In this document: piece after piece, positions 2,477-48,447 of the stretch
Layout: the number at the start of each line of letters is the position of its first letter
Numbering within the stretch: the first letter of the stretch is position 1
NCBI RefSeq assembly: GCF_012163145.1
Contig: NZ_JAAVTX010000002.1
Coordinates: forward strand, 682,001-746,000
Direction of reading: 5' to 3'
Source: Falsiroseomonas frigidaquae
Lineage (GTDB): Bacteria; Pseudomonadota; Alphaproteobacteria; Acetobacterales; Acetobacteraceae
DNA length: 64,000 nucleotides
Made by a program: the position numbers and the translations under genes
Notes under the pieces: generated by a model
Told to the model about the DNA's origin: nothing
The model's database searches: none
Seen by the model: only the letters and a program-made list of their open reading frames with translations

Positions 2477-2995
2477 ATGAACCGACGCCAAGCCGGGACC
2501 GGACGCTCCGGCACCGGTCCCGACCTGGCCGCGGCGCTGTTCGTGCTTGCACTCGGCCTGCTGGCGCTCTGGCAGACCGCCGTCATCCCGGCCTCGCCGA
2601 TCTACGCGCAGGTCGGGCCGCAGCTCGTGCCCTACCTCGTCTCCGGCTTCCTGGTGCTGATCGGCGCCGGGCTGGTGGCGACGGCGCTGCGCGGCGGCTG
2701 GTCCGCGAACATCGAGGAACTGCGCGACGCCCCGCCGATCAACCCGCGCGCGCTCGGCCTGCTGCTGGCGGCACTGCTGGCCAACCTCGTGCTGATCGAG
2801 CCTTTCGGCTTCACCATCGCCGCCACCGCGCAATTCGTGCTGGTGGCGGCCGCCTTCGGGTCGCGCGCCCTGCTGCGCAACCTGGTCATCGCCTTCATCG
2901 TGTCGCTGTCCGCCTACGGGCTTTTCGTGAAGGGGCTCGGCGTGAACATCGGCGCGGGCATGGTGGAATCCCTGGTCTTCGGAGCCCCCTTCTGA
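2477..2995 (+). CDS. tctB: TctB small membrane subunit
   Basis: This 172-residue protein has four hydrophobic segments, the size and pattern of the TctB subunit of tripartite tricarboxylate transporters. The basic N-terminus is followed by a helix with [14 protein letters not shown]. Three more helices follow, with VVxGAPF-like ending VFGAPF. The ATG starts 2 bp after the receptor stop, and the TGA shares a base with the TctA ATG, which points to translational coupling. TctB is thought to help couple the receptor to the TctA channel. Sequence is weakly conserved in this family, so the call rests on topology and context. Confidence 0.85.
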
Positions 2996-4491
2996 TGGGG
3001 GCGATCGACGGGCTGATCCTTGGCTTCGGCCATGCGCTGACGCTGTCCAACCTGGGCTGGGCGCTGCTCGGCTGCTTCCTCGGCACCGCCATCGGCGTGC
3101 TGCCCGGCATCGGCCCGGCGCTGACCATCGCGCTGCTGCTGCCGATCACCTTCAGCGTCTCCGCTACCGGCGCCTTCATCCTGTTCTGCGGCATCTTCTA
3201 CGGCGCGATGTATGGCGGATCGACCACCTCCATCCTGCTGAACACGCCGGGCGAATCGGGGTCCATCATCACCGCCCTCGAAGGGGCGAAGATGGCGAAG
3301 AACGGCCGCGCCGGGCCGGCACTCGCCACCTCCGCCATCGGCAGCTTCATTGCCGGCACGGTGGGCACGCTGGGCATCGCCTTCATCGGGCCGATCGTCG
3401 TCGAATACGCGCTGATGCTCGGCCCGGCCGAGTACTTCATGCTGATGGTGCTGTGCTTCGTCACCGTCTCCGCCGTGCTCGGCGGATCAGCCCTGCGCGG
3501 GCTGGCCAGCCTCGGCTTCGGGCTGCTGCTGGGGCTGGTCGGCGTGGATCTGCAGACCGGCCAGCCGCGCCTGACCTTCGGCGTGCCGGAATTGCTGGAC
3601 GGCGTGAACGTGGTGCTGGTCGCCGTCGCGCTATTCGCGGTGGGGGAGACGCTGTACCTGGCCTGGCGCCATGTCGAAGGCCCGGTCGAGGTGCGCGATG
3701 TCGGGCGCATCATGATGACGCGCAGCGACTGGAAGCGGTCCTTCTGGCCCTGGGTGCGCGGCGCCGGGCTCGGCTTTCCCTTCGGCGTGATGCCGGCCGG
3801 CGGGTCCGAGATGCCGACCATGCTGAGCTACTTCCTGGAACGGAAGCTGGTGAAGCCTGAACACGCCGCGGAATTCGGCACGACCGGCGCCATCGAAGGC
3901 GTGGCCGGCCCCGAAGCCGCGAACAACGCCGCAGCCGCCGGCGTGCTGGTGCCGATGCTGACACTCGGCCTGCCGACCAGCGCCACCGCCGCCATCATGC
4001 TCTCCGCCTTCCAGTCCTACGGCATCCAGCCCGGGCCGCTGCTGTTCACCAGCCAGCCGGACCTGGTCTGGACCCTGATCGCCAGCCTGTTCATCGCCAA
4101 CGTCATGCTGGTGGTGCTGAACCTGCCCCTGGTCGGGCTGTGGGCGCGCATCCTGAAGATCCCGCCGCCGCAACTCTACGCCGGCATCCTGGTCTTCGCG
4201 ACCATCGGCACCTACGGCATCAGCAACTCCATCATCGACCTGATGCTGCTCTACGGCATCGGCATCATCGCCATGTTCATGCGCCGCTTCGACTTCCCGG
4301 TCGCACCCGTCGTCATCGGCATGATCCTCGGCCCGATGGCCGAACAGGCCATGCGCCAGGCCATGACCATCAGCCAAGGCGACTGGACCGTGTTCTTCAC
4401 CCGCCCCGTCAGCCTGATCCTGCTGCTGCTCGCCCTGACCGCCCTGCTCGGCCCCCACCTGTACACAGCCTGGCGCCGCCGGGGGGCGTGA
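2995..4491 (+). CDS. tctA: TctA large permease subunit
   Basis: This 498-residue protein is the transport channel of the TctCBA system, with about twelve membrane segments. The family signature [21 protein letters not shown] is visible near residue 30, followed by [18 protein letters not shown], both diagnostic of TctA. A second inverted-repeat half contains [15 protein letters not shown] and [13 protein letters not shown]. The start shares its A with the TctB stop codon. Together with the upstream receptor and TctB it makes a complete secondary carboxylate importer. A five-hairpin repeat element begins 24 bp after the stop. Confidence 0.95.
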
Positions 4492-4515
4492 GGCGGACGG
4501 GTTGCGCTGGTGATG

Positions 4516-4722
4516 GCAGGGGGACGCTGTCCCCCTGCACCCCCTGCCAGGGGCCTCGGGCCCCTGGACCGCGAGGACTTTAAGCGGAGAAGCGGAGGGG
4601 GCCGGCGGTACCGCTGCACAAGCGGTCGCTTCGGCCCCCTCCGCTTCTCCGCTTATGATTCATGGGTTCAAAGGGCCAAAGCCCTTTGCGGGAGGGTGCA
4701 GGGAGGGCAGCGCCCTCCCTGC
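4516..4722. repeat. Five-hairpin palindromic element, copy 1
   Basis: This 207-bp intergenic element has five successive hairpins. A is 4516-4538 (9-bp stem, loop CGCTG). B is 4547-4567 (9 bp, loop TCG). C is a 23-bp perfect stem, 4582-4604 with 4632-4654, plus a closing T-A pair. Its 27-nt loop holds a smaller hairpin (ACCGCT/AGCGGT). B' is 4669-4688 (8 bp, loop CAAA). A' is 4698-4722 (11 bp, loop AGC). The two halves also mirror each other, with TGCACCCC on the left and GGGTGCA on the right. It fills the gap between two convergent genes. Copy 2 is at 46154-46365 and keeps every stem although the stem sequences differ. Confidence 0.85.
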
Positions 4723-4748: not shown

Positions 4749-7193
4749 TCACCCCCCTGGCAGGGCGTAGGCGATGACGTGGTCGCCGGCGGTGGTGCCG
4801 AGGGAGCCGTGGCCGCCGGCGATGACCAGCAGGTATTGGCGGTTGTCGGTGCCGGTGTAGGTCATGGGGGTGGCTTGGCCGCCGGCGGGCAGGCGGTGTT
4901 CCCAGAGTTGTGCGCCGGTGGTGGCGTCGTAGCCGCGCACGTAGTTGTCGAGCGTGCCGGACATGAAGGCGACGCCGCCGCGGGTCAGGATCGGCCCGCC
5001 GAGGTCGGGCACGCCCATGCGGAAGGGCAGCGGCACGGGGGACAGGTCGCGCACGGTGCCGTTGCGGTGCTGCCAGGCGATCTGGCCGGTGGTGAGGTCC
5101 GCGCCGGCCACATAGCCCCAGGGCGGGCGCTGGCAGGGCAGGCCGATGGGCGACAGGAAGGGGTAGAGCTGGACGGCGTAGGGCGCGCCGAAATTCTCGT
5201 TCAGCGCGGGCAGGCTGCCTGGGGGGCGGTTCTCGCCCTGGACATACAGCGTGGTGGCATCCTCGCGCGGGACGAGGCGGGAGACGAAGGCGAGGTAGGC
5301 TGGCGTGGTGAAGGCGATCTGCCGTTCCGGGTCCACGGCAATGCCGCCCCAGTTGAAGACGCCGAAATTGCCCGGATAGACGATGGAGCCCTGCAGCGAG
5401 GGCGGCGTGTAGCGGCCCTCATATCGCAGCCGGCGCAGCTGGATGCGGCAGGCGAGCTGGTCGAACAGCGTGGCCCCCCACATGTCCCGCCCGCGCAGCA
5501 TCGGCGGGTCGAAGGACAGGGCGGAGACGGGCTGGGTGGGTGCGGTGGTGTCGCCCGGCGCGGCGCCCTGCGGGGCGGGCACCTCGCGGATCGGCAGGAT
5601 GGCTTCGCCGGTGCGGCGGTCCAGCACGTACAGCTCGCCCTGCTTGGTCGGCTGCACCAAGGCGGGCACGGTCTGGCCCTCCACCGTCAGGTCGATCAGC
5701 GTGGGCTGGGAGGGGACGTCGTAGTCCCACAGGTCGTGGTGCACGGTCTGGAAGGCCCAGCGCAGGCTGCCATCCGCTAGGTCCAGCGCCACCACGGCGG
5801 AGGAGAAGCGCTCCACCGCCGGGCTGCGGTTGCCGCCGAACTGGTCCGGCGGCTGGTTGCCCAGCGGCACATAGACCAGGCCGAGCGCGGCATCGACGCT
5901 GAGGATCGACCAGGCATTGGGGGAGTTGGGCGTGTAGGTGGCATCCGGCGCGATCGGCGCGGTGTTGTCCGGCGCGCCCGAATCCCAGTTCCACAGCAGC
6001 GCGCCGCTGCGCGCATCATAGCCGCGGATGACGCCCGATTGTTCGCTGGTGGAGACGTTGTCGAGTACCGTGCCGCCCACCACCAGCACGCCATTGGCGA
6101 CCACGGGCGGGGAGGTGGAGTAGTAGCCGCCCGGCCGGACGTTGGGCATGTTGGCCCAGAGGTTGATCTGCCCTGTGCCGTCGCCGAAGTTGCTGCACAC
6201 GGCGCCAGTCTCGGGATCGAGCGCGATGACGCGGCCATCGGCCGTCGGCATGTACAGCCGCGCCCCGCATTCCACCGTCGTCGCGCCCTCGGCCGCGACG
6301 GGCAGGCCGGGCACGGCTTCGCGGGCCGCCGCCACGCGGGCCGGGTCCAGCGGCGCGGGCGGCGCGGCACCGGACTCTGGCGCCGGCAGCCAGCCGAGGC
6401 CGCGGCAGGTCAGGTGCTGCAGGGCCAGGTCGTTCAGGATGGTGGGTTCGTAGCGCCAGATCTCGCCGCCCGTCGTCGCATCCAGCGCGATCACCGCCTG
6501 GTGCGGCGTGCAGAGGAACAGGCGGTTTTCGATCTTCAGCGGCGTGACCTGGAAGGTGGTCTCCTGCGGTTCCCCCGGCTGGCCGCGCATGTCGCCGGTG
6601 CGGTACTGCCAGGCCACCTCCAGCCGCGCCACATTGGCGGGCGTGATCTGGTCCAGTGGCGAGAAGCGCTGGGCCAGGCCGGTGCGGCCATAGGCGTGCC
6701 ATTCCCCATCCGGGATGCCCTGATCCGCCACTGCGAGGCGGCGGGTCGGCAGCGCACCCTCGATGGCATGGGGGTCGCGCAGCATGGCGATGGGCGCGGT
6801 GACGATGCTGGCCAGCACCGCCAGGCTCAGCACCGCGCCGCCGCCGCGCAGCGGGCTGGTGCCGAGCGGGCGGGTGATCCAGGGCGTCAGCAGCAGCAGC
6901 GCCAGCACCACCAGCAGGCCGCCGCGTGGCGCCAGCGCCCACCAGTCCAGCCCCGTCTCCCAGATCGCCCAGGCGAGCGTGACCGCCAGCAGCAGCCCAA
7001 AGACCAGCAGCGCCGCGTCGCGCCCGCGCCACAGCAGGATGCCGGAAGCCAGCATCGCCAGCCCTGCCAGCAGGTAGAACCAGGACCCACCGAGCAGCAC
7101 CAGCCAGGCGCCGCCCCCGGCCAGGCCCAGGCCGGACAGCAGAAGGAAGGCTGCCATCAGGCGCGGCAGCAGCATGGGGCGGGATTGGGGCAT
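4749..7193 (-). CDS. Membrane-bound PQQ-dependent glucose/quinate-type dehydrogenase
   Basis: This 814-residue protein oxidises a sugar or cyclitol on the periplasmic side and passes electrons to ubiquinone. The first 140 residues hold about five membrane helices, and the rest is the PQQ-binding eight-bladed propeller. Family features include GEWHAYGRTGLAQRFSPLDQ at the start of the propeller, WAFQTVHHDLWDYDVPSQP in the middle, and the C-terminal GGHGSLGTTAGDHVIAYALP. The length matches the glucose/quinate/shikimate dehydrogenase family (about 800). No PQQ biosynthesis genes are in the window. Glucose, quinate and shikimate are all possible substrates. Confidence 0.92.
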   Translation of the reverse strand: MPQSRPMLLPRLMAAFLLLSGLGLAGGGAWLVLLGGSWFYLLAGLAMLASGILLWRGRDAALLVFGLLLAVTLAWAIWETGLDWWALAPRGGLLVVLALLLLTPWITRPLGTSPLRGGGAVLSLAVLASIVTAPIAMLRDPHAIEGALPTRRLAVADQGIPDGEWHAYGRTGLAQRFSPLDQITPANVARLEVAWQYRTGDMRGQPGEPQETTFQVTPLKIENRLFLCTPHQAVIALDATTGGEIWRYEPTILNDLALQHLTCRGLGWLPAPESGAAPPAPLDPARVAAAREAVPGLPVAAEGATTVECGARLYMPTADGRVIALDPETGAVCSNFGDGTGQINLWANMPNVRPGGYYSTSPPVVANGVLVVGGTVLDNVSTSEQSGVIRGYDARSGALLWNWDSGAPDNTAPIAPDATYTPNSPNAWSILSVDAALGLVYVPLGNQPPDQFGGNRSPAVERFSSAVVALDLADGSLRWAFQTVHHDLWDYDVPSQPTLIDLTVEGQTVPALVQPTKQGELYVLDRRTGEAILPIREVPAPQGAAPGDTTAPTQPVSALSFDPPMLRGRDMWGATLFDQLACRIQLRRLRYEGRYTPPSLQGSIVYPGNFGVFNWGGIAVDPERQIAFTTPAYLAFVSRLVPREDATTLYVQGENRPPGSLPALNENFGAPYAVQLYPFLSPIGLPCQRPPWGYVAGADLTTGQIAWQHRNGTVRDLSPVPLPFRMGVPDLGGPILTRGGVAFMSGTLDNYVRGYDATTGAQLWEHRLPAGGQATPMTYTGTDNRQYLLVIAGGHGSLGTTAGDHVIAYALPGG

Positions 7194-7994: not shown

Positions 7995-8044
7995 AACTTG
8001 ACAATGGTCAGATTGGGTTGCGAAAAACTGACCATTGGCAAGTT
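7995..8044. promoter_or_regulatory. Probable TetR operator between divergent genes
   Basis: Two 17-bp arms, AACTTGACAATGGTCAG at 7995-8011 and CTGACCATTGGCAAGTT at 8028-8044, are inverted with one mismatch around a 16-bp spacer. Each arm is itself nearly palindromic (TGAC..., ...GTCA or GGCA), so this looks like two dimer sites. It lies 26 bp upstream of the TetR start and 12 bp before the start of the divergent membrane-protein operon. The left arm contains TTGACA, which could be a -35 box, but no good -10 follows. Confidence 0.75.
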
Positions 8045-43423: not shown

Positions 43424-46126
43424 ATGAAAATGCAATTCATCCTGGAGTTGATATTTCGCTGCCGGCACGGCTTGGCTGGGGGCCTGCTGGGGGCCCTGCT
43501 GGCGGCCGGCGCCCCGGCGCATGCGCAGTTCTCCGGCCAGGGTTCGGAAGGCGCGACGCTGGCGCCGCCTGCCCTGCCCTCCCTGCTGCCCGGCGGGCTC
43601 CCGGTGCCGACCCTGCCGCTGGCGGCGCAGCAGGAAATCCTGCAGCGCATGCGCGACGCCGCCACCGGGCGCAGCCCGGTTTCGGGCGGTCCGGTCTCAC
43701 CCGGCCCGCTGCCCGCACCCAGCGCGCCCGCCTTCCCCACCGCCCCGGCCGCCGCCGCACCACCGGCCAGCGAGGCGCCGTCCCACACCGAGGCCTTCTT
43801 CGCCGAACGCCTCGGCCTGGCCCTGCGGCAATTCGGCTATGACAGCTTCACCAGCACCAGCCGCGCCCCGAGCCAATCCGGCGCCCTGCCGGAGGACTAC
43901 CTCATCGGCCGGGAGGATGAGCTGGTGCTGGCGCTGCGCGGCCGCACCCGCGCCACGCTGAACCTGCGGGTGCAGCGCGACGGCACCATCCTGACCCCGG
44001 ACCTGCCACCGATCCCGGCCGCCGGCCGCACCCTGGGCGCGCTGCGCGCCGACCTCGAGGCCCGCGTGGCGCGGGACATGCCGGGCACCGAGATATTCCT
44101 CTCGATCGGCCAGGTGCGGCAGATCGCCATCTTCGTGGCCGGCGAGGTGCAGCGGCCGGGCATGCAGACGGTCACCGCGCTGTCCTCCGTGCTCGATGCT
44201 CTGATGCAGGCCGGCGGGCCGCGCCGCACCGGCAGCCTGCGCGCCATCCGCGTCGAAGGCCCCCGCGGCCGCCGCATCATCGACCTCTACGCCGTGATCA
44301 CCGGCGAAGGGGCGGAGGTGGATCTGGCGCTGCGCGAAGGCGAGCGCATCATCGTGCCGCCGCTCGGCAGCGTCGTCGCCGTGGCCGGGGAGGTGACGCG
44401 CCCGGGCATCTACGAACTGCCCGCCCGCGCCACCAGCGCGCCGCTCGCCACCCTGCTGCGCCTGGCCGGCGACCCGCTGCGCCCGGCCGGCAACCGCTTC
44501 CTGGTGCAGGGCACCCAGGCCGGTGGCGGCCGCAGCTTCGCAGAGATCGGGCCGCGCGATGCCGTGCGCCGCGGCGACAGCGTGCTGGTGCAACCCGGCG
44601 CCGATGTGGTGGCGAACCAGCTTCGCCTCGCCGGCCACGTCTCCGCCCCCGTCACCCGCGCCGTCGGCCGCGGCGGCGCCACGCTGCGATCACTGCTGAG
44701 CGACGCCAGGCTGGTGCGGCCGGACCCCTATCCGCGGCTGTCCGTCATCCTGCGGCTGGACCCGGTCACGCGCAGCCGCAGCTTCATCCCCTTCGACCTG
44801 TCCCGCACCCTGCAAGGCACCAGCGACCTTGCGCTGGCCGAGGGCGACGAGGTGATCGTGCTCGGCAACAGCGACATCGCCTGGCTCGCAAGCCCGCCGG
44901 TGCAGCGGGCGCTGCGTGGGGAGGCGCCGGGCGAGGACGCCTGCCCGGCGCTGACCCAGCTCGCCATCGCCACCCGCAGCGCCCCCGCCCGCTTCGCCCA
45001 CGCCCGCGGCGCCGGCTTCCCGGATATCGGCGCGCCGGGCTGCCCGCAGGTATTCCTCGACTATCCGCAGCTGCTGGGCTTCCTGCTGGATTCCGCGGTG
45101 CTGCTGAGCGGCGAGGTACGCCAGCCCGGCCTGTTCCCGCTGCTGGACGACACCGGGCTGGACCTGCTGCTGGCCGCCGCCGGCGGCGCCACCGATGGCG
45201 CCGACCTGTCCGCCGTGGAGTTGGCCCGCGAGCCCACCGACCAATCCGGCGCGCAGCCGCTGTCCCGCCTGCTGCTGGACCTGCGATCCCGCAATTTCCG
45301 CGCCGTGCGGCTTTCACCGCGCGACGTGCTGCGCGTGCCGCGCGGCTTCTCGGACCGCGAAAGCGGCCCCGTGGTGCTGGCCGGCGAGGCACTCCGCCCC
45401 GGCAGCTACGACATCCGCCGTGGCGAGCGCCTGTCCGAATTGCTGGCCCGCGCCGGCGGGCTGACACCCCAGGCCTACCCCTACGGCGCCGTCTTCACCC
45501 GGGACAGCGTACGCCGCCGCCAGCAGGAAGGTTTTGCGCGGACGGCGCGCGACCTGGAAACCTCCCTGGTCCAGGTGGCCGCCGGGCAGGCGGTGGCCGG
45601 CGGGCGCGCGCAGGGGGTGGATGTCGGCAGCGCCATCACCGCCGGGCGCGAACTCGCCGCCTCGCTGCGCCAGGCGCAGGCCGCCGGACGCATGGTGGTG
45701 GAGGCCGACCCGGTGCAACTCGCCGCCCACCCGGAACGCGACGTGCTGCTGGAACCGGGCGACCTGATCGTCATTCCGAAACGCCCCAACGAGGTGACGG
45801 TTGTCGGCGCCGTGCTGAACCCGGGCAGCCTGCAATTCCGATCCGGCTGGCGCGCCAGCGACTACGCCCGCGCCGCCGGCGGCGCCCAGCGCTTCGCCGA
45901 CAGCGCCCGCGCCTTCGTCGTGCTGCCGAACGGCCAGGCCGCCCCGGCGGGACTTTCGGGCTGGCAGGCCGGCGGCCCACCCATCCCCCCCGGCAGCCTG
46001 GTCGTCGTGCCCCAGGACCCCTCCCCCTACGAAACCTGGGGCTTCATCCGCGACCTGACCCAGGTGCTGAGCCAGGTCACCATCTCCTCCGCCGCCTTGG
46101 CCGTGATCGCGCGGGAGCTGCGTTGA
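43424..46126 (+). CDS. SLBB-domain polysaccharide export protein (Wza-like)
   Basis: This 900-residue protein has a signal peptide (residues 1-37, ending APAHAQ) and a proline-rich linker. A polysaccharide-export domain follows (DYLIGREDELVLALRGRT). Several SLBB domains come next (VFVAGEVQRPGM, VAVAGEVTRPGIYEL, LLSGEVRQPGLFPL, VVLAGEALRPGSYDI, VTVVGAVLNPGSLQF). It would form the outer-membrane channel for the polymer. It is larger than Wza (about 380) because of the extra SLBB copies. It has no lipobox that I can see. The yjbH gene follows with a hairpin element between. Confidence 0.92.
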   Translation: MKMQFILELIFRCRHGLAGGLLGALLAAGAPAHAQFSGQGSEGATLAPPALPSLLPGGLPVPTLPLAAQQEILQRMRDAATGRSPVSGGPVSPGPLPAPSAPAFPTAPAAAAPPASEAPSHTEAFFAERLGLALRQFGYDSFTSTSRAPSQSGALPEDYLIGREDELVLALRGRTRATLNLRVQRDGTILTPDLPPIPAAGRTLGALRADLEARVARDMPGTEIFLSIGQVRQIAIFVAGEVQRPGMQTVTALSSVLDALMQAGGPRRTGSLRAIRVEGPRGRRIIDLYAVITGEGAEVDLALREGERIIVPPLGSVVAVAGEVTRPGIYELPARATSAPLATLLRLAGDPLRPAGNRFLVQGTQAGGGRSFAEIGPRDAVRRGDSVLVQPGADVVANQLRLAGHVSAPVTRAVGRGGATLRSLLSDARLVRPDPYPRLSVILRLDPVTRSRSFIPFDLSRTLQGTSDLALAEGDEVIVLGNSDIAWLASPPVQRALRGEAPGEDACPALTQLAIATRSAPARFAHARGAGFPDIGAPGCPQVFLDYPQLLGFLLDSAVLLSGEVRQPGLFPLLDDTGLDLLLAAAGGATDGADLSAVELAREPTDQSGAQPLSRLLLDLRSRNFRAVRLSPRDVLRVPRGFSDRESGPVVLAGEALRPGSYDIRRGERLSELLARAGGLTPQAYPYGAVFTRDSVRRRQQEGFARTARDLETSLVQVAAGQAVAGGRAQGVDVGSAITAGRELAASLRQAQAAGRMVVEADPVQLAAHPERDVLLEPGDLIVIPKRPNEVTVVGAVLNPGSLQFRSGWRASDYARAAGGAQRFADSARAFVVLPNGQAAPAGLSGWQAGGPPIPPGSLVVVPQDPSPYETWGFIRDLTQVLSQVTISSAALAVIARELR

Positions 46127-46153
46127 GGAAGAAGGGTCTGCGCGGGTGGCTTC

Positions 46154-46365
46154 GCAGGAGGGGCTTTGCCCCCCTGCACCCCCCACCAGGAGGCAGTGGC
46201 CTCCTGGACCACAGGACCTTTGAGCAGGACGGGAGAGGGGGCCGGAGCGCCCGCCGGTCCAGCGCGACCGCGAGCCCCCTCTCCCGTCCTGCTCATGAAT
46301 CAAGGGGTTCCAAGGGTCCATTGACCCTTGGCAGGGGGGTGCAGGGGGGACAGCGTCCCTCCTGC
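46154..46365. repeat. Five-hairpin palindromic element, copy 2
   Basis: This 212-bp element repeats the architecture of 4516-4722. A is 46154-46177 (loop TTT, one bulged A). B is 46186-46207 (9 bp, loop AGTG). C is a 21-bp perfect stem, 46222-46242 with 46274-46294, plus a T-A closing pair. B' is 46310-46331 (9 bp, loop CATT). A' is 46341-46365 (11 bp with one G-T pair, loop AGC). Linkers after B (GGACC, AGGAC, TTT) and after C (ATGA, TCA, GGGTTC) are shared with copy 1. It lies between two same-strand genes, and the reading frame of yjbH stays open through it. Confidence 0.85.
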
Positions 46366-48447
46366 AAATCACGCCGCGCCGCCCTCGCCCTCACGCTGTT
46401 CCTGCCCGCTACCGCCGTGGCGCAGGAGGTGCCGGGGACGGGGTCCAGCTATGGCGGCGTTGGACTGATCGAGATGCGGAATGCGCGGTTCCGGCCGGAT
46501 GGGGTGGTGGAGGCCGGGTCGTCCCTGCGGCATCAGCGGCGCTTTCACTTCCTGAACTGGCAGGCCCTGCCGTGGCTGGAGACGAGTTTCCGGCTGGCGG
46601 AGCGGCTTGATGGGACGAGTGGCGCGGGGATGACCACGGACCGGTCCTTCGATGTGAAGCTGCGGCTATTGACGGAGTCGGATTGGGTGCCGGCGGTGGC
46701 TGTGGGGCTGCAGGATTTCATCGGCACCGGGCTGTATTCCGGCGAGTATGTCGTGGCGTCCAAGCGCTTCGGGAATTGGGATGCGACGCTGGGCATCGGC
46801 TGGGGACGGCTGGGCACCGGGGATGATCTCGGCAATCCGCTGACCAGCCTGTCGCCGCGTTTCGAGGATCGGCCGCGGGATGTGGGAGAGGGTGGCTCGA
46901 TCAACACCTTCCCCTTCTTCCGGGGCGAGCAGGCGGCGGTGTTCGGCGGGCTGGAGTATTCGCTGCCGGAGCTTTGGACCCCGTTCGGCGGCATCGAGGG
47001 CCTGCGCGCCAAGGTCGAGTATTCGGGCGATGCGCTGCGCGATGAGCGTGGCGGCTGGCCGGCGCGGACCACGGGGTTGCGCGGCGAGGCGCGGAGCCGG
47101 CTGAATTACGGGCTGCACTGGTCGAATGGCTGGCTGGATGCCGGGCTGGACTGGGTGCATGGCACGGATTTGCTGTTTCGGCTGTCCGCCCGCTTCGACC
47201 CCGACCGGGTGCCGGAGCGGGCGGCGCTGCCGGCGCTCGGCGCGCGCCCTGTTTCGCCCCCGGCACCCGAGGCTGCGATGCGGGAGGCCTTGCGCCGGGC
47301 CGGCTTTCGCCCGGTGGCGGTGGAGATCGCGGGCGCCGAGGCGCGGATTGCTGTGGCGGGCGGCCGCCAACGCCGGCTGGCGGGGGCTGCGGGACGGGTT
47401 CTGCGCGCGGTGCAGCCGCATCTGCCACGGGGGTTCGAGAGGCTGCGCCTGTCCTGGCGCCAGGCGGGGGTGGAGGTGGCCCGCCTGACCCTGCCGCGCC
47501 GCGCGATGGAGGCGGCGAGCCGTGGCGATGGCAGTGCGGAGGAGCTGTTCTTCGCCAGCACGCTGGAGCCGGCCGGCGCCGATCGCTTCGGGCTGATGGG
47601 CGGCGGGTCCGGCTTCGCCTGGGGCGCGGAGCCGCGGCTTTCGGTGCTGCTCGGCGATCCGTCCCGCACGCTGCGCTGGCAGGCCGCGGCCGTGCTGGGG
47701 GCGCGCTGGGAGATCGGGCAGGGATTCGCCGTGGCCGGCAGCCTCTCCCGCGCCCTGGCCGGTAACCTGGCGGGCGCGCCGCCCTCGGACAGCCTGCTGC
47801 CGCGCGTGCGCAGCGAAGCCGCGCGCTATGCGCGGGAGGGGGAGACGGCGATCCCGGCACTGTATGGCGAAGGCATCTGGGGGCTGGGGCCGGATCTCTT
47901 CGGCCGCGTCACCGCGGGTTATCTGGAGCCGATGTTCGCGGGCGTGTCCGCGGAGGTGCTGTGGCGGCCGCATGACCGGCCCTGGGCGCTCGGCGTGGAT
48001 GTCGCGCAGGTGGCGCAGCGGGATTACGACCAGCAGCTCGGCGTGCTCGGCTATCATGTGACCACCGGGCATGTCTCAGCCTATGCCGACCTGCCCTGGC
48101 ACAATCTGCAGGGCGTGGTCCGGGCCGGGCGATACCTGGCCGGGGATTGGGGGGCGACGGTCGAGCTCTCGCGCCGCTTCGCCAGCGGCATCGAGATCGG
48201 CGGCTTCGCCACGCTGACCGACGTGCCCTTCAGCCAGTTCGGCGAGGGCAGCTTCGACCGTGGCATCTTCATCCGCATCCCGCTCGACCTGTTCGGCATC
48301 GAGACCCGCGCGGTGGCGCCGGTGGTGGTGCGCGGCGTGACGCGCGATGGCGGCGCCAGGCTCGCCGTGGACAACCCGCTATGGGAGGTGACGCGGGAAG
48401 GGCGGAGCCAGGCGCTGCAGGACGGGTTTCGCGACTTTTTGCGCTGA
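46339..48447 (+). CDS. yjbH: YjbH-family exopolysaccharide outer-membrane protein
   Basis: This protein of about 702 residues matches the YjbH family, whose genes accompany exopolysaccharide loci. SSYGGVGLIEMRNARFRPDG opens the mature domain and the rest is rich in beta strands, ending in a barrel-like region. No ordinary start precedes the signal peptide (KSRRAALALTLFLPATAVAQ). The best choice is a GTG at 46339 that lies inside hairpin-element copy 2 and supplies the residues QGGQRPSC before the basic stretch. A TTG at 46123, coupled to the SLBB stop, would add 72 residues encoded by the element. So the N-terminus looks rewritten by the repeat. Confidence 0.8.
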   Translation: MQGGQRPSCKSRRAALALTLFLPATAVAQEVPGTGSSYGGVGLIEMRNARFRPDGVVEAGSSLRHQRRFHFLNWQALPWLETSFRLAERLDGTSGAGMTTDRSFDVKLRLLTESDWVPAVAVGLQDFIGTGLYSGEYVVASKRFGNWDATLGIGWGRLGTGDDLGNPLTSLSPRFEDRPRDVGEGGSINTFPFFRGEQAAVFGGLEYSLPELWTPFGGIEGLRAKVEYSGDALRDERGGWPARTTGLRGEARSRLNYGLHWSNGWLDAGLDWVHGTDLLFRLSARFDPDRVPERAALPALGARPVSPPAPEAAMREALRRAGFRPVAVEIAGAEARIAVAGGRQRRLAGAAGRVLRAVQPHLPRGFERLRLSWRQAGVEVARLTLPRRAMEAASRGDGSAEELFFASTLEPAGADRFGLMGGGSGFAWGAEPRLSVLLGDPSRTLRWQAAAVLGARWEIGQGFAVAGSLSRALAGNLAGAPPSDSLLPRVRSEAARYAREGETAIPALYGEGIWGLGPDLFGRVTAGYLEPMFAGVSAEVLWRPHDRPWALGVDVAQVAQRDYDQQLGVLGYHVTTGHVSAYADLPWHNLQGVVRAGRYLAGDWGATVELSRRFASGIEIGGFATLTDVPFSQFGEGSFDRGIFIRIPLDLFGIETRAVAPVVVRGVTRDGGARLAVDNPLWEVTREGRSQALQDGFRDFLR

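Follow-up and report, generated by a model that had tools for sequence, protein, structure and literature searches.

Within the 64,000-nucleotide stretch of Falsiroseomonas frigidaquae DNA analysed here (hereafter the window), two segments at positions 4516-4722 (copy 1) and 46154-46365 (copy 2) share a layout of five hairpins in the order A-B-C-B'-A' [Table 1] while differing in the sequence of their stems. A first-pass annotation had described them as a two-copy element; the common order holds for both, but the genome turned out to carry 16 loci rather than two. The C stems, of 24 pairs in copy 1 and 22 pairs in copy 2, contain no mismatch and, under settings that allowed loops of up to 62 nt and required 15 net pairs or more, are the only such stems in the window. 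Aligned over 22 positions, and not 21 as originally counted, they differ at eight, all of which are Watson-Crick paired in both copies (8/8), six of the differences being transition-type and two transversion-type. Covariation of the long stem is thus upheld in all but the aligned length. The B and B' stems were said to behave like C, and their differences between copies are likewise compensated; not every stem is perfect, however, A and A' of copy 2 having one mismatch each.

A and A' are flanked on the outside by inverted ends of loose conservation (consensus near GCGC-GGTG-TT), so that each element may be viewed as two inverted half-units placed around C. When 169 overlapping slices of the window were submitted to a strict five-hairpin parser, copy 1 alone passed, copy 2 falling below the threshold. 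The minimum-energy fold of copy 1 as RNA is a long rod pairing A with A' (z -12.1), and that of copy 2 as DNA is also a long A:A' rod, in which B and B' are kept local (z -12.0). We ranked this long-rod fold below local hairpins because local complementarity is the better conserved of the two: among 84 family elements retained by the parser (see below), local self-complementarity reached 0.85-0.88, loops included, compared to a cross-complementarity of 0.72 for A:A' and 0.73 for B:B', a comparison that leans toward local pairing since the parser selects local hairpins.

The Rfam collection yielded no match in the window at gathering score. A lax search of five loci returned 55 matches at E ≤ 1, mostly to microRNA models and none at gathering score, which were dismissed as long-hairpin look-alikes. 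Nor was a five-hairpin composite described in the open-access literature among the matches listed, in agreement with the first-pass statement that no named family has this layout.

Table 1. Positions in the window of the hairpins, terminal segments and neighbouring genes of the two copies
Feature	Position	Strand	Remarks
TctA family gene (PF01970)	2995..4491	+	stop codon 24 nt before copy 1 hairpin A
Copy 1 left terminal segment, inverted-repeat end, GCGCTGGTG type	4500..4515	+	semi-conserved end on both sides in aligned copies
Copy 1 hairpin A	4516..4538	+	10 bp, perfect
Copy 1 hairpin B	4547..4567	+	9 bp, perfect
Copy 1 hairpin C	4581..4655	+	24 bp; arms 4581-4604 and 4632-4655, inner loop between
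Copy 1 hairpin B'	4669..4688	+	8 bp, perfect
Copy 1 hairpin A'	4698..4722	+	11 bp, perfect
Copy 1 right terminal segment	4723..4738	+	semi-conserved end in aligned copies
PQQ dehydrogenase gene (PF01011)	4749..7175	-	convergent; stop 26 nt from copy 1 hairpin A'
Polysaccharide export gene (Poly_export/SLBB domains)	43430..46126	+	stop 27 nt before copy 2
Copy 2 left terminal segment, GCGCGGGTGGCTTC	46140..46153	+	
Copy 2 hairpin A	46154..46177	+	one mismatch
Copy 2 hairpin B	46186..46207	+	9 bp, perfect
Copy 2 hairpin C	46221..46295	+	22 bp, perfect; arms 46221-46242 and 46274-46295
Copy 2 hairpin B'	46310..46331	+	9 bp, perfect
YjbH family gene (PF06082)	46339..48447	+	likely GTG start and signal-peptide N-region inside copy 2
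Copy 2 hairpin A'	46341..46365	+	one mismatch; overlaps probable 5' end of downstream coding sequence
Copy 2 right terminal segment	46366..46379	+	

Copy number, taxonomic spread and placement at gene ends

A DNA search of the source genome (G000) with copy 1 gave 33 matches, both strands counted, the dispersed copies being 86-92% identical to copy 1 over its full length. A covariance model of the half-unit, R1, was built from 24 half-units of 12 copies from this genome (86 positions, 20 pairs); its E-values are rough. At E ≤ 1e-4, R1 produced 30 matches in the source genome, corresponding to 16 loci, of which 13 consist of two inverted half-units around C (12 of these being the ones on which R1 was trained), one of two adjoining half-units with no room for C, and two of a single half-unit. 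Three shortened loci of this genome (L019, L023 and L011) are devoid of C and/or of a half-unit, consistent with internal deletions; in the right half of another (L002), an unrelated small palindrome replaces part of the B'-A' linker.

The same model search, which the first-pass annotation had suggested, detected R1 in all 16 Falsiroseomonas genomes, source genome included, with 12-145 matches each at E ≤ 0.01 from a maximum of 150 scored candidates, and in 148 of 249 sampled family genomes, again including the source genome, from 61 of 102 genera (E ≤ 0.001). Class-wide, five of 289 genomes matched at E ≤ 1e-4, a number that includes the source genome. The "family" of these searches, with more than 100 genera, is wider than the NCBI family, Falsiroseomonas being placed by NCBI taxonomy in Roseomonadaceae, Acetobacterales, and many of the genomes compared are draft assemblies. 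The exact pattern of the B hairpin occurred in five stretches of the named genome collection, all from Falsiroseomonas, and the plasmid collection contained no match to copy 1. Two genomes from one genus of another family in the class (G421 and G518) harbor 6 and 7 half-unit matches. The original observation is thus confirmed with a reach far wider than two copies, many loci and homologues having been found where a search returning the two copies alone had been envisaged as speaking against it.

To 133 loci, the best-scoring among the matches listed, such that weak copies are under-sampled, we applied the strict five-hairpin parser. Eighty-four passed, some of them mutually orthologous and hence not independent; the 49 that failed include copy 2 and several short or degenerate elements. 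Median stems in the 84 elements are 11, 9, 22, 9 and 11 bp, for a layout of about 205 bp. Thirty-seven of these elements lie between convergent genes, 46 between tandem genes, none between divergent genes, and one has no gene on one side (edge). An earlier set of 73 loci, overlapping the 84, comprised 43 tandem, 29 convergent and one divergent. Of the 20 gaps between genes in the window that measure 100 bp or more, 7 are divergent. The distance between stop codon and A hairpin has a median of 21 nt, with quartiles at 16 and 28, and stays within 40 nt for 111 of the 120 sides that face a stop codon; on the start-codon side the median is 77.5 nt (n = 46). These distances answer a question raised in the first-pass annotation as to where the copies sit relative to gene ends; the gene calls came from a simple codon-position script and were checked by eye on the window only.

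Copy 2 is peculiar in that the YjbH-family gene most likely starts at the GTG at 46339, within the element, in which case A' would encode the N-region of the signal peptide, as judged by eye. At the same site (hereafter s2), G015 and G007 have an in-frame GTG at a place like that in copy 2; in other species, the candidate starts vary, some being located elsewhere in the element, and the hydrophobic stretch stays. If the gene does start there, copy 2 must be transcribed through. At another site (s3, occupied in the source genome by L010), the element separates two genes that other species carry almost side by side. Thus, transcription probably crosses some copies, which weakens the case for a terminator role. 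As to copy 1, the only copy around which terminator-like sites (hairpin plus T run) were sought, none was found between 4300 and 4950, and an intrinsic terminator was rejected at this copy for want of a T run. Elsewhere in the window, positions 7995-8044 between divergent genes hold an AT-rich 20-base inverted repeat, 90% complementary, that may be an operator.

Pairing of the stems and orientation at orthologous sites

The stems of the elements diverge in sequence while the layout is conserved. The C stem has no interior mismatch in 83% of the 84 parsed elements, which between them contain 70 distinct C arms. Sixty-six distinct C stems comprise 18 pairs or more; of their inner 18 pairs, 98.8% are Watson-Crick, 0.25% G-T and 0.59% A-C, and three or four Watson-Crick pair types are found at 17 of the 18 positions. 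Shuffling the C 3' arms among elements (500 shuffles) brought Watson-Crick pairing down to a mean of 48% and a maximum of 54%; the parser favours paired stems, and the shuffle keeps this selection of elements while breaking the partnership of the arms. Compensated changes no more frequent than chance, the other outcome that was to count against a covarying structure, are therefore not what the family displays. In the helices of the R1 training alignment, 95.9% of cells are paired and 10 pairs show double changes, values that none of 500 shuffles equalled; by another of the five covariation measures applied to the half-unit, that of further pair types, 445 of 500 shuffles scored as high. Interior mismatches in the 84 elements number 48 versus 5103 pairs. 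Read on the sense strand in tandem contexts, they comprise 10 G-T, 9 A-C and 3 other mismatches; in non-tandem contexts, read on the arbitrary strand of the locus, the figures are 7, 16 and 3, which is not perfectly even.

Orthologous elements allowed changes within stems to be followed. The survey covered 33 pairs of orthologous elements that had passed the parser and could be aligned on both flanks; from these, 18 disjoint pairs were hand-picked, one per site, with flanks 83-94% identical. Hairpins less than 70% identical were excluded (18 of A/B type and 12 C in the 33 pairs; 2 and 2 in the 18 pairs). The 18 disjoint pairs showed 41 double Watson-Crick changes (26 transition-type and 15 transversion-type), 36 single changes (12 G-T, 10 A-C and 14 other, 15 of the 36 coming from one poorly aligned pair, L003-L319) and one double non-pairing change. 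About 1.1 complementary doubles would be expected if the arms changed independently, and the 41 observed are thus far above this expectation; selection, too, would raise such an excess. The 33 pairs, which are not independent of one another, gave 59 doubles, 48 singles and 3 double non-pairing changes, and a looser alignment of 49 dependent pairs gave 171 doubles, 92 singles (27 G-T, 20 A-C and 45 other) and 13 double non-pairing changes. In four close species (G001, G007, G010 and G014), about 90% identical at the loci compared, four sites yielded 28 doubles, 9 singles and one double non-pairing change from non-independent pairs, and 10 doubles versus 2 singles from disjoint pairs. G-T was not favoured over A-C, whether between orthologues or, on the sense strand, within elements at tandem sites.

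Presence of the element at a given site varies among genomes, and stems at the same orthologous site are often quite different in sequence, yet paired. At s2, in a comparison that leaves out G011, G012 and G006, the element is present in 11 genomes, nine of which pass the parser and two of which (G013 and G009) fail; G008 has a shortened element, and in G003 the aligned flanks are separated by 67 bp alone. At s3, the element is found in G000, G015, G004 and G013 and, in a degenerate form that fails the parser, in G008. The aligned flanks of this site are 5-19 bp apart in G001, G003, G005, G006, G007, G010 and G014, 63-64 bp apart in G002 and G009, and 89 bp apart (partly coding) in G011; the locus ends at a contig edge in G012. 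The boundaries of these element-free sites at s3 are too fuzzy for a target-site duplication to be called. At L010 itself, a 14-base flank sequence is present on either side of the element as an inverted copy, as if the copying of the palindrome had overrun the element. Site s1 was compared with G015 only, the other genomes having one alignable flank in the fetched loci.

The orientation of the elements also varies, and does so at three nested levels, as the C loop, the B-C-B' block and the whole element all occur in either orientation at orthologous sites. The C loop at s2 reads ACTTCG in G001 and G010 and CGAAGT in G014, outer and inner segments being direct, and the whole element is inverted in G007. 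At a second site (sX), the B-C-B' block is inverted in G001 alone, with A and A' unchanged: direct and inverted identities between G001 and G007 are 0.74 and 0.94 for the inner block and 0.98 and 0.66 for the outer hairpins. Outer and inner orientation vary independently at a third (sY), where direct and inverted identities are 0.90 and 0.69 (outer) and 0.72 and 0.85 (inner) between G001 and G014, and 0.72 and 0.88 (outer) and 0.96 and 0.74 (inner) between G007 and G014. At a fourth (sZ), of which the comparison did not include G010, G001 and G014 carry the whole element in opposite orientations, and G007 retains a single A-type hairpin in 64 bp. Scored for outer then inner segments as direct (D) or inverted (I), the 33 pairs distribute as DD 8, II 7, DI 4 and ID 2, with 12 partly or wholly without a call, and the 18 disjoint pairs as DD 6, II 7 and DI 2, with 3 lacking an orientation call. 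Orientation thus differs at 9 of 15 callable sites, at 7 for the whole element and at 2 for the inner part only. Re-insertion could account for whole flips but is hard to reconcile with those restricted to the inner block or the loop.

Origin and possible role of the elements

Taken together, these data lead us to favour, with modest confidence, the view that the element is a composite palindromic repeat, BIME-like and lineage-specific, that belongs to the acetic-acid-bacteria group, is positioned about 20 nt after stop codons and has its arms rewritten by template switching. The best reading of the hairpins' perfection is that it is kept mainly at the DNA level. The dynamics of the sequences resemble the arm homogenisation and spacer inversion produced by DNA template switching, as described for coding inverted repeats of yeast in PMC8604942. 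When a replication fork meets such palindromes, the nascent strand may jump to the other arm and use it as template. Within a stem, a jump of this kind would copy one arm onto the other, yielding perfect stems and double changes; across a stem or linker, it would invert the intervening segment, yielding flips. As A and A' are alike in both orientations, recombination between them could delete the middle and leave a solo hairpin such as that seen at sZ in G007. Template switching alone would not prevent the decay or deletion of palindromes, so that selection or amplification would be needed as well, and some selection would still have to retain the element at 3' ends. PMC8794818 similarly attributes the making and maintenance of rRNA hairpins, with loop inversions, to template switching; the multiple compensatory changes and loop inversions it reports in rRNA were significant, whereas single ones did not exceed the null. 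Against our proposal, single changes were not rare in the present family (36 of 77 changed pairs). That the perfect stems owe their maintenance mainly to template switching and not to RNA selection, and that this process is active enough to bring nested segments near random orientation between species about 90% identical, we advance only tentatively.

Several known systems share features with this family. REP/BIME sequences are, according to PMC2817692, high-copy extragenic palindromes arranged in composite arrays of alternating orientation, and the 16 loci of the source genome bear a likeness to them in copy number. PMC12306157 reports that many E. coli REPs are near the 3' ends of open reading frames, that those within 15 nt of the stop codon stall ribosomes (the median here being 21 nt), and that many simple REPs were counted in Lichenicola cladoniae, which NCBI taxonomy assigns to Acetobacteraceae; the CGTC-type REPs of PMC3733652 are reported by that study to be missing in Acetobacteraceae. 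Neither passage describes the present composite. The present elements differ from REP/BIME in their A-B-C-B'-A' layout, hypervariable C stem (median 22 bp) and nested inversions, and membership in the REP/RAYT system was rejected because the Y1 (RAYT) transposase PF01797 was found in none of the 16 genus genomes at E ≤ 1e-5, a control giving a signal in 5 of 14. With the hairpins generated by template switching (PMC8794818 and PMC8604942), they have in common perfect arms, simultaneous double changes beyond independent expectation, and inversion of the loop or spacer with the arms kept (the C loop at s2; the inner block at sX and sY), but those are scattered events in rRNA and yeast coding genes, in contrast to a bacterial repeat family inverting at three nested levels. 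Like MITEs, the elements have terminal inverted repeats, the GCGC-GGTG ends being loosely conserved on both sides, as well as dispersed intergenic copies and occupied and empty sites; the looseness of these ends sets them apart, as does the failure of the Y1 search to identify a transposase, and no target duplication could be made out at the fuzzy boundaries of the s3 sites. Bidirectional intrinsic terminators likewise consist of GC-rich hairpins that lie shortly past the stop codons of converging genes, but the elements have five hairpins, copy 1 has no T run and copy 2 probably holds a start codon.

The same data may be read differently. The elements could be structured 3'-UTR RNAs, acting as bidirectional terminators or stabilisers, in which purifying selection preserves pairing through ordinary compensation one base at a time. 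Their close placement after stop codons with no copy among 83 in divergent position, the strong pairing constraint in C stems and the RNA fold z-score of -12.1 would all fit. One-strand RNA selection, however, should tolerate G-U over A-C mismatches, and the stems do not (10 G-T versus 9 A-C on the tandem sense strand), which argues against such selection; because G-T pairs could also be lost where genes converge and both strands are under selection, it is the tandem subset that matters, and this subset is small. Moreover, 15 of the 41 doubles are transversion-type, for which there is no route through G-U. The inversions of loop, block and whole element, the lack of a terminator-like T run at copy 1 and the lack of an Rfam family at gathering score in the window and in five loci also speak against this explanation. 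We regard it as unlikely. The first-pass annotation had offered selection on structure or arm-copying; covariation holds family-wide and, in light of the lack of G-T excess, the transversion-type doubles and the loop and block inversions, the data lean toward arm-copying or both together, leaving the earlier interpretation partly supported.

Alternatively, the elements may be miniature mobile elements whose ready-made hairpins are swapped or flipped, either through recombination among dispersed copies or through a dedicated recombinase or transposase, and the covariation would then be the outcome of such swapping. If whole modules were taken over from other copies within a genome, both arms would likewise be altered together, and the 86-92% identity of the dispersed copies to copy 1, the occupied and empty sites at s3 and the inverted-repeat ends are in keeping with this explanation, as is L004 (G000:C13:298306-298509), whose poorly paired, chimeric C combines arms of two C types; read by eye, this locus looks like a recombinant of two copies. 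Yet what separates close orthologues is a handful of compensated pairs and not the exchange of entire stems, inversion boundaries at three nested levels are ill-suited to one specific site, and the recombinase search, limited to Y1 (IS200/REP type), recovered no transposase in the 16 genus genomes; we consider this explanation, too, rather improbable. The number of copies, their similarity, the occupied and empty sites and the differences in orientation give no support to the earlier suggestion of an immobile relic. Flips could finally be assembly or library artefacts at palindromes, given the many draft genomes and the near-random orientation at 9 of 15 sites. This is very hard to credit, as the inverted repeats do not exceed about 30 bp while the assembly k-mers of one genome apparently reached 77, the compensated changes occur in stems irrespective of orientation, and related genomes agree at some sites (L163/L164 and L150/L318).

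Returning to the template-switched palindromic repeat that we favour, its strand symmetry, occurrence in both orientations and proximity to stop codons suggest a two-sided 3' boundary, which might slow RNA polymerase or shield mRNA 3' ends rather than act as a U-tract terminator; this assignment of a role is weaker than that of the sequence dynamics. If the proposal is true, the covariation seen here would largely be a by-product of DNA copying and not proof of an RNA function. Compensated changes are usually treated as near-proof of RNA structure; this dispersed family, with its paired evolution of arms and its flipping segments, warns against drawing an RNA function from covariation in palindromic repeats. 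With its many natural replicates per genome, the family, an apparently unnamed and abundant 3'-end element of a large bacterial family, could serve to separate selection from template switching.
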